Shown in pieces: positions 36,167-41,404 of a DNA stretch of 64,000 nt (position 1 is the stretch's first letter; each line of letters begins with the position of its first letter). The position numbers were made by a program, and so were the translations under genes. The stretch lies in the NCBI RefSeq assembly GCF_900101015.1, contig NZ_FNFZ01000013.1:1-64000 (forward strand), in the 5' to 3' direction. The notes beneath the pieces are model-generated. The model was not told the DNA's origin, did not search any database, and worked only from the letters and a program-made list of their open reading frames with translations. The DNA comes from Sarcina sp. DSM 11001. GTDB taxonomy: Bacteria; Bacillota; Clostridia; Lachnospirales; Lachnospiraceae.

Positions 36167-37489
36167 ATGAATCATTCATTTGAAAAAGAAAGTACTTCCG
36201 TAGGGCCGGCAATTGAGTACCGCAATGTGTACAAGCGCTTCGAACGCATGGGTGCCCAGGCTCTCCGCGGACGTCATGCCCGTATGAGCGGAGGCAGGAT
36301 AAAGGAAAGAGAAGTTTTTCCCTCAGGCGGTGGATTAAAGGAAGAAGCCGGTTTTTACGCGGTCAAGGATTTGAGCGCCTCTGTCAGGGAGGGAGAGCTG
36401 ATCACGATCCTAGGCTCCTCCGGATGCGGCAAGACGACTTTGCTGAAAATGACCAACAGGCTGTATGAACCGGACGGGGGAACGATCCTTTTGTTCGGAG
36501 AGGACATTCAAAAGCAGGATCCAGTGCAGCTGCGCAGGAGGATGGGGTATGTAATCCAACAGGCGGGTCTTTTTCCGCATATGACGGTAGAGGACAATAT
36601 CAGCGTGATCCCGCGTCTGCTCAAATGGGAGCCTGAGCGCTGCCGGGAACGTGTCACACAACTGCTGGATCTGGTCGGCCTAGAGCCGAAGCAATACCGG
36701 AACCGCTACCCTTCCCAGCTCTCCGGCGGCCAGCAGCAGCGGGTCGGCCTGGCCCGCGCGCTTGCAGCGAAACCTCGGGTAATAAAGACAGTGGAGAAGG
36801 GCGGGCGGCTCGTCTATCTGTTTTCTGTAGGAACTACTTGTTACTACAGCTTTGTTTACACGGATGGCCCCGCACCGGATTTTTCCTTTACCGGGATGGA
36901 GTTCCTGCCGTTTTCTTTTGGAAACAAACCGGTCCCGAAAAATGTCTATTTTGGCGCGGAGACCGCTTTTCAGCTTTCTTCCTGGTATAACGGAAACCGC
37001 CACTGCGGCCGCTGCGGCGGTCGTATGAGCGTCCATCCCAAAACCCGCTGCATCCGGTGTACTTCCTGCGGGAACATAGATTACCCTCGCGTTATGCCGG
37101 CCGTGACCATTGCGGTGATCAACGGGGACAAGCTCCTGATGATCCGCTACAGGCCGCGGGAGGAAGATGGATATGCCGGCACTTCCCTGATCGCAGGTTT
37201 TATCGAGGTTGGTGAGACCATTGAAGATGCCGTTTGCCGCGAGGTCATGGAGGAGGCCGGCCTGAAGGTCTCCAATATCCGCTATTACAAGTCCCAGCCC
37301 TGGGGTTTTGCCTCCAACCTGATGATCGGAGTCATCTGCGACCTCGATGGAAGCGATGAGACCGCTGTGCATGATACTGACGAAGTGGCGGAAGCTGTCT
37401 GGATTCCCCGGGATGAGATCCGGGTGTACGACAACGGCGTTTCCCTCACCTTCGAGATGATTGACCGGTTTAAAAAGGGTGAAATATAA
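36167..37489 (+). CDS. In-frame chimera: truncated ABC ATPase joined to NudC-like NAD pyrophosphatase
   Basis: One 440-residue frame joins two unrelated enzymes. Residues ~15-196 are an OpuCA-type ABC ATPase with Walker [10 protein letters not shown] (83-91), Q-loop YVIQQ and signature LSGGQQQR (175-182). It stops right after ARALAAKP, before Walker B, D-loop and H-loop. From ~200 the protein is NudC-like: zinc ribbon cysteines 260, 263, 278 and 281, a Nudix box at ~324-346 (GFIEVGE...REVMEEAG) and the NudC marker SQPWGF (356-361). The ATPase half also carries a ~35-residue insert (~27-62). The ATPase should be inactive; the Nudix half may work. Confidence 0.9.
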
Positions 37490-38419: not shown

Positions 38420-38606
38420 GTATTTACAGAGACAGTAATGATATGTTTCCTTTATCGGATCGGTCGTGAACCTATACATTACTAAATCGTTATTAAATTG
38501 GTCGCAAAACCATACGAGAAAAGCAGAAGATAAAAACAGAAGAGCAAAACAGAGTAGAAAATACTGGAAATCGCATAAACCGGCAGGACCGGACAGAGAG
38601 GACAGA

Positions 38607-40004
38607 ATGGCAAAAATTCCTTTTATTTTTCGAAAGACAAAGACAGTGCGCAATCTGAAGTCCTACATGGACACTGCCTTCAGTGAAGTTCTGCACACTA
38701 CTTTAAATCCGAATGGCCCCGGTGCTATCCGGATCCACCTGATCCCTCCGAAGGAGGAGGAAAATTCTTTTAATCCCAGCATTGCTATTATTAACGGGAC
38801 CGATATTCTGCCGGTCAATTTCGCCTGGGCGGTCATTCTGGCGGAAATGATCCGGGAGACCAACCACTATGACGGAAAAGAGATCGGAGAGCCGGAAATA
38901 CAGAGTATTCTGGACCGCACCACTGAAAACGTGCGGAAGATCCTTCCGGTTTTTTCCCGTAAACGTATTCAGGCGGACATGCAGACCATCTACACGACGA
39001 TCCGGCAGATCGCCTACCGTGAGCAGGTGACCACGGATGTTCATTTCATGAGTATAGGCGATTACGCGCCGTTTATGCAGGCACCCCACCGCATGGATCT
39101 GATGGTCAGCGCCATGACGAAGGAGGGAAACTGGCACTGTAACCAGAAGTGCGTCCACTGTTATGCCGCCGGCCAGCCCCTGTCCGATGAGAGGGAGCTT
39201 TCCACGGAAGACTGGAAAAAGGTTCTGGACATCTGCCGCAGGGTCGGTATCCCTCAGGTGACCTTCACGGGAGGTGAGCCCACCATGAGGGAGGACCTTT
39301 TTGACCTCATCAAATATGCCCGCTGGTTTATCTCACGACTTAACACCAATGGGATCCGGCTGACTCCGGAATACTGCAGACAGCTCCGTGAAGCGGAGCT
39401 GGACAGCGTGCAGATCACGTTCTATTCCGCGGACCCGGAGATTCACAACCGCCTGGTCGGCGCCGCCCGGTATGAGGAGACGCTGGCGGGAATCAAAAAT
39501 GCCCTGGAACAGGGACTGTCGGTGAGCATCAATACGCCCCTGTGTACGCTCAACCGGGAGTATGAAAAAACACTGGAGCTCCTGCATGAACTCGGAGTCA
39601 TTTATGTGACCTGCTCCGGGCTGATCACCACAGGAAGCGCAGCGGGAGCCCTGTCGGAGTCTCTGCAGCTGGGGAGTGAAGAACTGGAAGAGATCCTGCG
39701 TCAGGCTGTTTCCTATTGCCACCAGAACGGCATGGAGATCGCCTTCACTTCCCCCGGATGGCTGGATGAGAAGGTCTTTGAGGAACTTTGCATTCCGTCG
39801 CCGTCCTGCGGAGCCTGCCTCTCCAATATGGCCATTACCCCGGGCGGAAACGTGGTACCCTGTCAGAGCTGGCTTTCCGGCCAGCCGCTGGGAAACATGC
39901 TCACCGATGACTGGAAGGACATCTGGGACAGCGGGCCCTGCCAGACCCGCCGGGATTTTTCTGCCCGGCTGACCGGCGAATGTCCCCTGAGGAGGTACTG
40001 CTGA
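38607..40004 (+). CDS. Radical SAM/SPASM-type enzyme, probable peptide modifier (ACGX-like system)
   Basis: This enzyme has 465 residues and is cytoplasmic. An N-terminal ~165-residue region of unclear fold comes first, then the radical SAM core with CNQKCVHC (Cys 178, 182, 185) for the 4Fe-4S cluster and TFTGGEPT (220-226) for SAM. The C-terminal ~75 residues hold a Cys pattern CIPSPSCGAC...VPCQSW...GPC...GECPLRRYC typical of SPASM auxiliary-cluster domains. ATG 38607 follows GAGAGGACAG. Its stop overlaps the start of the next gene by one base, so it is translationally coupled to the Cys-repeat membrane protein, its likely substrate. From memory it fits the rSAM 'ACGX' systems. Confidence 0.88.
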   Translation: MAKIPFIFRKTKTVRNLKSYMDTAFSEVLHTTLNPNGPGAIRIHLIPPKEEENSFNPSIAIINGTDILPVNFAWAVILAEMIRETNHYDGKEIGEPEIQSILDRTTENVRKILPVFSRKRIQADMQTIYTTIRQIAYREQVTTDVHFMSIGDYAPFMQAPHRMDLMVSAMTKEGNWHCNQKCVHCYAAGQPLSDERELSTEDWKKVLDICRRVGIPQVTFTGGEPTMREDLFDLIKYARWFISRLNTNGIRLTPEYCRQLREAELDSVQITFYSADPEIHNRLVGAARYEETLAGIKNALEQGLSVSINTPLCTLNREYEKTLELLHELGVIYVTCSGLITTGSAAGALSESLQLGSEELEEILRQAVSYCHQNGMEIAFTSPGWLDEKVFEELCIPSPSCGACLSNMAITPGGNVVPCQSWLSGQPLGNMLTDDWKDIWDSGPCQTRRDFSARLTGECPLRRYC

Positions 40005-41404
40005 TGAAATACAGACTTAAGGTGCTTTTGATAAGCCACAGACTAAAAAGAGTTGAAAAAAAGCCCGCAGAGCGAGCTTCGTATTCAGGACAGAGAGGTC
40101 TCGCCCTTCTTATGACGGCTTTTCTGGTCGTGTTTTTCCTGACTTTCTCCGCGCCTTTTTCACAGGTCGCGGAAGCAGCCACTCCTACCGATGAGATCGA
40201 GCATTTCCTGATCACTGTGGACGTGCAGGAGGACGCCTCCCTGCAGATGACCTATCACATAGACTGGAAGGTGCTGGACGATGAGACCTACGGCCCTCTG
40301 GACTGGGTGGATATCGGTCTTCCCAACAGCCACCATTCCGGGATCACTGCTCTGGGAGACAACATCAGCAACATAGAGGACAATGGCTCTTCTGCAGCCG
40401 TCTATCTGGACCGCAGCTATTACAAGGACGAGGTGGCAAGCTTTGAGTTCTCCTTTGTCCAGGACAATATGTACCAGATCGGCCGCTACGTCGAGGGAGA
40501 GACGGTATTTGCCTACACGCCTGCCTGGTTTGACGAGATTGAAGTGAAAGATCTGACCATTCGGTGGAACGCGGACAAGGCCGGCGCCTGGCAGCCGGAC
40601 TGTCTGCAGGACGACGGTTACCTGGTCTTTTCTTCTGCACTTTCGCCGGGTGAACATTACTCCATTACCGTGGCCTACCCCAATGACGCCTTTGCCTTTT
40701 CCAGTGACCGTCAGGCGGGGAGCGATGATACGGAGTCAGAGTGGAGCAGCACAGACGATGACTATGATTATAACTATGAGAGCAGTACAGGCGGCGATGA
40801 TCTGGTATCGATCATAGGCGGACTGATCGTATTATTCGTTTTCTTCGTAATGCCCCTCATGATGGTCGTCAGGTTCTTCCGCTGGATCGCCGGCGGCGCA
40901 GGATTCGGCAGTTCTTCCTCCGACGGCGTTTCCTACCAGAAAAAGATCACCCGCACCAAGATCGAGTATTATGAGACCTGTCCCGGCTGCGGAGCCGCCC
41001 ACGAGGAAGGCAGGGACGACTGTCCATACTGCGGCCGCAGTATGATCAAAAGCAGGGAGGTCGTTGAGGAAAAAGACCTGGATAAACCGGAAAACTACAG
41101 CAGAACCGGTACCTACAGATACGGGAACTCCCCCAATACCTTCATTCACGTGAATGTGATCAATGTGCCTGTTGTCCGCCCCTCCGGCCGCCGCAGCACG
41201 GGGGGCAGCTCCAGAAGCTCCAGGCCCTGGTCTTCCTGTGCCTCTTCCTGCGCCTCCTCCTGTGCTTCCAGCTGCGCCTGCGCGTCAAGCTGTGCATGTG
41301 CCTGCGCCTGTGCTTCATCCGGCCGGGCCGGCTGTTCGGCCAAGGAATTTTTCACGGAAAGGATCCACAGCGGCAGAGTCAGGGTGAAGGGATATCAGTC
41401 CTGA
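40004..41404 (+). CDS. Membrane protein with Cys-rich repeat tail, probable radical SAM substrate
   Basis: This protein has 466 residues. A membrane segment or signal lies at ~32-50, followed by an extracellular beta-rich DUF2207-like domain (~60-225), an acidic Ser/Asp/Tyr linker, and a second membrane helix (~267-290). The cytoplasmic part has a zinc ribbon (CPGCG...CPYCG, ~326-344). Residues ~410-444 carry ten cysteines in SSCA/ACA units, then GRAGCSAKEF. This tail looks like the repeated Cys targets of rSAM-modified peptides, and topology puts it on the enzyme's side of the membrane. GAGGAGGTACTGC precedes the ATG inside the radical SAM gene. Confidence 0.85.
   Translation: MKYRLKVLLISHRLKRVEKKPAERASYSGQRGLALLMTAFLVVFFLTFSAPFSQVAEAATPTDEIEHFLITVDVQEDASLQMTYHIDWKVLDDETYGPLDWVDIGLPNSHHSGITALGDNISNIEDNGSSAAVYLDRSYYKDEVASFEFSFVQDNMYQIGRYVEGETVFAYTPAWFDEIEVKDLTIRWNADKAGAWQPDCLQDDGYLVFSSALSPGEHYSITVAYPNDAFAFSSDRQAGSDDTESEWSSTDDDYDYNYESSTGGDDLVSIIGGLIVLFVFFVMPLMMVVRFFRWIAGGAGFGSSSSDGVSYQKKITRTKIEYYETCPGCGAAHEEGRDDCPYCGRSMIKSREVVEEKDLDKPENYSRTGTYRYGNSPNTFIHVNVINVPVVRPSGRRSTGGSSRSSRPWSSCASSCASSCASSCACASSCACACACASSGRAGCSAKEFFTERIHSGRVRVKGYQS

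Follow-up and report, generated by a model that had tools for sequence, protein, structure and literature searches.

A radical SAM/SPASM enzyme paired with a Cys-Ala/Val-tailed membrane protein in gut and rumen bacteria: a candidate for protein modification in place

Most radical S-adenosylmethionine (SAM) maturases described so far act on small peptides. In ACGX systems, radical SAM enzymes are found with simple-repeat substrates. The substrate of SkfB, the sporulation killing factor sactisynthase (PDB 6efn), is a short secreted peptide. Further, CteB/SCIFF and the other ranthipeptide synthases (PDB 5wgg) combine radical SAM and SPASM domains with a RiPP recognition element (RRE; RiPP, ribosomally synthesized and post-translationally modified peptide) and a Cys-rich substrate (PMC8326336), and radical SAM enzymes are likewise paired with simple-repeat substrates in the His-Xaa-Ser (Hxs) systems (PMC9062424). 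Here, we analyzed a stretch of 64,000 nucleotides from Sarcina sp. DSM 11001 (assembly GCF_900101015.1, contig NZ_FNFZ01000013.1, positions 1 to 64,000; hereafter, the window), in which a radical SAM/SPASM enzyme gene is followed by the gene of a membrane protein with a Cys-Ala/Val tail. All features given below lie on the + strand. A preliminary description had reported a radical SAM enzyme with a SPASM-like Cys-rich end, a one-base overlap of the two genes and a ten-Cys tail after a zinc ribbon, and these features were confirmed by the open reading frames (ORFs) and Pfam matches. The genes form a two-gene unit of gut and rumen bacteria, in which the enzyme probably modifies the tail in place; this points to a kind of protein modification without a description in the literature searched. 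This search found no account of the pair; most subscription journals and bioRxiv lay outside its coverage, so unpublished status is unproven.

A scan of named genomes yielded 80 enzyme loci, the best 80 of 543 relatives; Lachnospiraceae is the title of most of their records, and rumen or gut samples are the source of many. In 74 of these the partner gene lay directly downstream of the enzyme gene, and the remaining six ended within 1256 bases of the enzyme. At the cut-offs of the surveys, 29 of 62 genomes in the genus of the window had the enzyme, and the same 29 had the partner. The genomes were again identical for enzyme and partner in the samples of the order (10/392 each) and of the phylum (11/398 each). 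The genome of the window was a hit in each of the three surveys, genome G000 was included in every survey, and the order and phylum samples overlap in some genomes. In the order and phylum samples, enzymes were sought at E <= 1e-70 with at most four candidates scored per genome, so that more distant partnerless enzymes could be missed. When a profile of the tail only was searched against 200 genomes of the family (one per genus), 16 matched, and in all 16 the tail gene was closely preceded by the 3' end of an enzyme gene of this type. The conserved co-occurrence that the preliminary description had suggested looking for was observed, and a tail protein regularly occurring without the enzyme, which would have spoken against it, was not. 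Chance neighbourhood is ruled out by the co-occurrence counts; the enzyme and the Cys-tail protein are a strict pair in the genomes searched. Four weaker radical SAM matches in the genome of the window had no such tail pattern in their flanks.

Some pairs of the genus set span contig ends (for example, in G009 and G083) and two copies are broken. In one of these (L049, G080) the enzyme ORF enters the Cys-tail DNA in another frame and the ectodomain is missing, through deletion or assembly collapse; in the other (L037, G082) the partner is frameshifted before the tail, which is intact in another frame, through sequencing error or repeat slippage. The pair also occurs on a human faecal contig whose unverified record (MT837216.1, 1-7415) is labelled 'Bacteriophage sp.'; its other ORFs are presumably bacterial, so that the label is doubtful.

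The tail core of the window's partner has ten Cys in 33 residues (412-444; 41237..41335), ends in GRAGC and was recognized from sequence and conservation. In the structure model it is unstructured, with low confidence. By composition, the cores are built from Cys, Ala, Ser and Gly; other residues are few, and aromatics and Lys are nearly absent. Ala or Val followed 732 of 734 Cys in the tails of 91 partners (the densest Cys cluster of each, its last Cys excluded): 606/606 in 74 partners (the window and 73 others), 56/56 in nine family members (9/9 of L053-L061) and 70/72 in eight distant relatives (8/10 of L062-L071; L063 and L067 are cut or masked). Of 74 partners compared (that of the window and all but one of the 74 others, L133 being excluded because its tail is cut), 73 have the core CACACAxxGRAGC (13 residues; xx = SS or GG), and the codons for Cys, Ala, Gly and Arg varied freely. 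The tail is the most conserved part of the partner: the mean pairwise distance among 48 loci (window included) was 0.11 for a tail segment, 0.34 for the enzyme and 0.47 for the ectodomain. The distances of the latter two were correlated (r 0.86). In the distant relatives L062-L071, the enzyme is about 35% identical to that of the window and the partner only 23-26%, and the tail is retained as the type GCACVSCACACVSCACACACAGGxGAGC at nine of ten loci, one of them cut short (L067 is masked before the tail). Conservation of the tail is far beyond chance: different genera and the distant relatives share it, although their synonymous codons differ. L062-L071 belong to two other families of the phylum, and their set of SPASM Cys is fuller than that in the clade of the window; their G+C content is 62-67% at five loci and 44-51% at the other five.

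The enzyme (465 residues; 38607..40004) belongs to the radical SAM/SPASM superfamily, with matches above the gathering score to Radical_SAM (PF04055, E 4e-27) and SPASM (PF13186, E 3e-6). Its ORF runs from the ATG at 38607 to the stop at 40004; an in-frame GTG lies upstream at 38466, and alignments of the genus homologues start at the ATG. The AlphaFold2 model has a predicted local distance difference test score (pLDDT) of 84.8. Alignments A5 and A6 comprise the window together with 49 of 80 enzymes and 48 of 74 partners; L131, with a stop in the enzyme frame, was omitted. The Cys of the CX3CX2C motif CNQKCVHC for the radical SAM iron-sulfur cluster (Cys178, 182 and 185; 39138..39161) are kept in 50 of 50 enzyme rows, and the sequence contains TGGEP. 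The reduced SPASM/twitch region matched by PF13186 (39807..39983) has Cys401, 404, 419 and 459, kept in 50, 49, 50 and 50 of the 50 rows, respectively. Cys336 is likewise conserved in 50/50 close relatives. The N-terminal domain (about residues 25-137; 38679..39017) consists of strands followed by three helices in the model, and its fold suggests an RRE-like assignment: the topology fits, and the structural alignments begin at residue 41 for SkfB and 33 for SuiB. These two RiPP maturases are the best fold matches of the enzyme model, and it is well supported that the enzyme works like a RiPP maturase. Loci L188, L193 and L195 have short partner tails and (C)GAALS in the enzyme in place of CGACLS; L195 has Val at the Cys336 position, which weakens Cys336 as a universal catalytic residue.

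The partner (466 residues; 40004..41404) shares the first base of its ORF with the last of the enzyme stop; with a start at an alternative in-frame ATG, at 39980, the two genes would overlap by 25 bases. When the ATG nearest the enzyme stop was taken as the start, 54 of 74 related pairs overlapped by 1 or 4 bases, an arrangement that suggests translational coupling. A hydrophobic N-terminal helix (40097..40159; hydropathy, model helix 29-52), a putative signal peptide or anchor, is followed by a predicted extracellular beta-sandwich domain (residues 60-230; 40181..40693), which is also conserved, and by a transmembrane helix (residues 267-296; 40802..40891) supported by hydropathy, charge pattern and a model helix. 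Then come a zinc-ribbon-like CxxC...CxxC (Cys326, 329, 340 and 343; 40979..41032), predicted to be cytoplasmic, a Ser/Gly/Arg linker, the tail core and a short segment with a conserved K-x-F (Lys447, Phe449; 41336..41401), a candidate recognition (follower) element. Charge and hydropathy predict that the tail faces the cytoplasm, in agreement with the preliminary description. The four zinc-ribbon Cys are invariant in alignment A6, and L028 lacks one of them; the ribbon is absent from the aligned L058-L071 partners, so it is dispensable and the tail is not. Among four partners searched, none reached the cut-off of an NCBIfam model: the partner of the window had no match at E <= 1, two others were unmatched and L053 gave three weak matches far below the cut-offs. 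A search for solved structures related to the partner by sequence gave a single match (E 0.44).

Beyond the pairing, tail conservation, enzyme family and topology pattern, which come directly from the computation, we infer that the tail is very probably the substrate of the enzyme. The modified product likely stays attached to the membrane protein, and the chance that its bonds are thioethers is about even. As a whole, we favour, with some reserve, modification of the (Cys-Ala/Val)n tail in place on the membrane protein by a RiPP-like two-gene unit, most likely through thioethers. The enzyme would be translated just before its partner and act in the cytoplasm, where the tail is also predicted to lie, and the tail would not be cut off; the K-x-F segment after the core could dock the enzyme. 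Enzymes of this family abstract a hydrogen from a carbon of the peptide, which in SkfB-like members is then attacked by a Cys sulfur. Ala can replace the natural acceptor of SkfB, and CteB links Cys32 to Thr34, two residues apart (PMC8326336); thioether formation within the Cys-Ala repeat is therefore favoured, with Cys sulfur joined to Ala/Val or to carbons nearby. The flexible tail might thereby become a rigid thioether-bridged knob at the inner membrane face, below the extracellular beta-sandwich domain, with a structural or signalling, perhaps redox-active, role in the cell envelope. We hold it an even bet that such a ladder of crosslinks in an alternating Cys-Ala polymer at the cytoplasmic end of a membrane protein is a permanent part of the envelope and a new class of modification. 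The crosslinks and the surface or sensor role proposed in the preliminary description are to be taken as putative.

Several observations weigh against this reading. In the VIA-align alignment, only SkfB and SuiB clearly cover the N-terminal domain and most other rows begin near residue 150; the CteB and TigE alignments begin at 146-157, past this domain. Pfam PqqD did not match the enzymes searched, so the RRE is seen at the fold level alone. SuiB, which forms C-C bonds, ties with SkfB in Z. Auxiliary Cys differ among the enzymes, with the fuller SPASM set of L062-L071 and the CGAALS of L188, L193 and L195. Among the 25 best NCBIfam matches listed per enzyme (25 of 66 for the window), no maturase model reached its cut-off; for the SkfB equivalog TIGR04403 (cut-off 300 bits), the enzymes of the window, L069 and L062 scored 50.9, 68.7 and 57.3, respectively. 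Further, Cys/Ala alternation by itself is not specific for thioethers and could serve metal binding or epimerization, and an unlinked protease could clip the tail later.

An unmodified tail might instead be a metal- or cluster-binding sensor, with the enzyme acting elsewhere or helping to load the cofactor. The dense Cys and the nearby zinc ribbon would suit a sensor, as would the acid and peroxide tolerance affected in S. mutans by a protein of the weakly matched DUF2207 family (PMC10457818). We consider this unlikely, however, with Ala or Val following almost every tail Cys, an enzyme adjacent wherever, among the 80 loci, the DNA permits a check and the resemblance of that enzyme to peptide maturases. 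Metallothionein-like proteins vary at the residue after Cys. Slightly less probable still is epimerization of alternate tail residues, which would leave an alternating D/L (Cys-Ala)n chain that might fold into a beta-helix within or at the membrane. Its two-residue period would fit a second epimerization two residues from the first, and the Cys336 shared by the close relatives would fit the critical Cys that epimerases use (PMC8326336); it also agrees with both Ala and Val after Cys and with the mild third hydropathy peak that 4 of 49 proteins show close to the tail. Proteusin-type epimerases have a C-terminal RRE and no auxiliary cluster (PMC8326336); the RRE-like domain of the present enzyme is N-terminal and its auxiliary Cys are conserved.

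Other radical modifications of Cys or Ala, such as C-C or C-O crosslinks or a heterocycle, are improbable; in a core almost without aromatics or Lys, SuiB-type chemistry would lack partner residues. The least probable is a conventional RiPP, in which the tail would be cleaved from the membrane protein, an unusual leader, and leave the cell as a secreted peptide. A position near the extreme C-terminus behind a flexible linker, with low model confidence, would allow such release, but the ectodomain is conserved too, a cytoplasmic C-terminal tail would require its own export, and the pair has no recurrent protease or transporter beside it. The last point, which the preliminary description had made for the window, holds across 81 loci (the 80 and the window), many flanks of which are cut by contig ends.

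No third gene was common to at least 10 of the 81 loci when antisense and out-of-frame shadow ORFs were set aside by eye; the largest upstream ORF clusters were common to only 9 and 7 loci. A link to cyclic-di-GMP was dropped, as GGDEF/EAL-like ORFs (by a crude pattern) lay upstream at only 3 of the 62 loci checked among the 80. Anti-phage defence was rejected; PADLOC matched only viperin models, over the radical SAM core. Plasmid carriage was rejected, with neither the enzyme (at E 1e-40) nor the partner (at E 1e-8) finding a match. Formylglycine-type modification, with the motif CxAxR or CxPxR, was also rejected, since inspection by eye found neither motif in the tail. Upstream in the window, one ORF (36167-37489) begins as the N-terminal part of an ATP-binding cassette (ABC) transporter ATPase and continues in frame as a NUDIX/zinc-ribbon (NADH pyrophosphatase-like) domain; deletion or misassembly could explain this fusion.

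Compared with the described systems, membership of the pair in a known RiPP class is not well supported, because the substrate is a large membrane protein and no protease or exporter recurs alongside. Sactipeptides and ranthipeptides have a short leader-plus-core precursor and a dedicated protease or exporter in the cluster; neither was found here. The Hxs and ACGX repeats differ from Cys-Ala. A literature search on ACGX found nothing, and the lack of an NCBIfam match to the window's partner at E <= 1 is to be read with the poor scoring of repeats and the unconfirmed presence of an ACGX model in the library. DUF2207 membrane proteins (PF09972) weakly match the N-terminal domain of the partner (E 0.04-0.05), with the tail outside the match and scores (14.5 bits for the window; 14.3 for L053 and L059) below the gathering score of 24.4 bits. 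SkfB, the peer by fold, is only 19% identical to the enzyme, and the ranthipeptide synthases match it at a sequence E of 1e-14; their substrates are small peptides, unlike the alternating Cys-Ala on a 466-residue membrane protein. If the proposed modification in place is correct, it extends radical SAM chemistry to the cell architecture of gut and rumen bacteria, and the Cys-Ala repeat could supply a compact genetically encoded crosslinking tag. The quinohemoprotein amine dehydrogenase system has, to our knowledge, neither a Cys-Ala repeat nor a membrane anchor. Its radical SAM enzyme QhpD resembles the present enzyme as we propose it to act, in that it introduces thioethers into an enzyme protein rather than a natural product; the QhpD bonds are Cys-Asp and Cys-Glu (PMC8326336).
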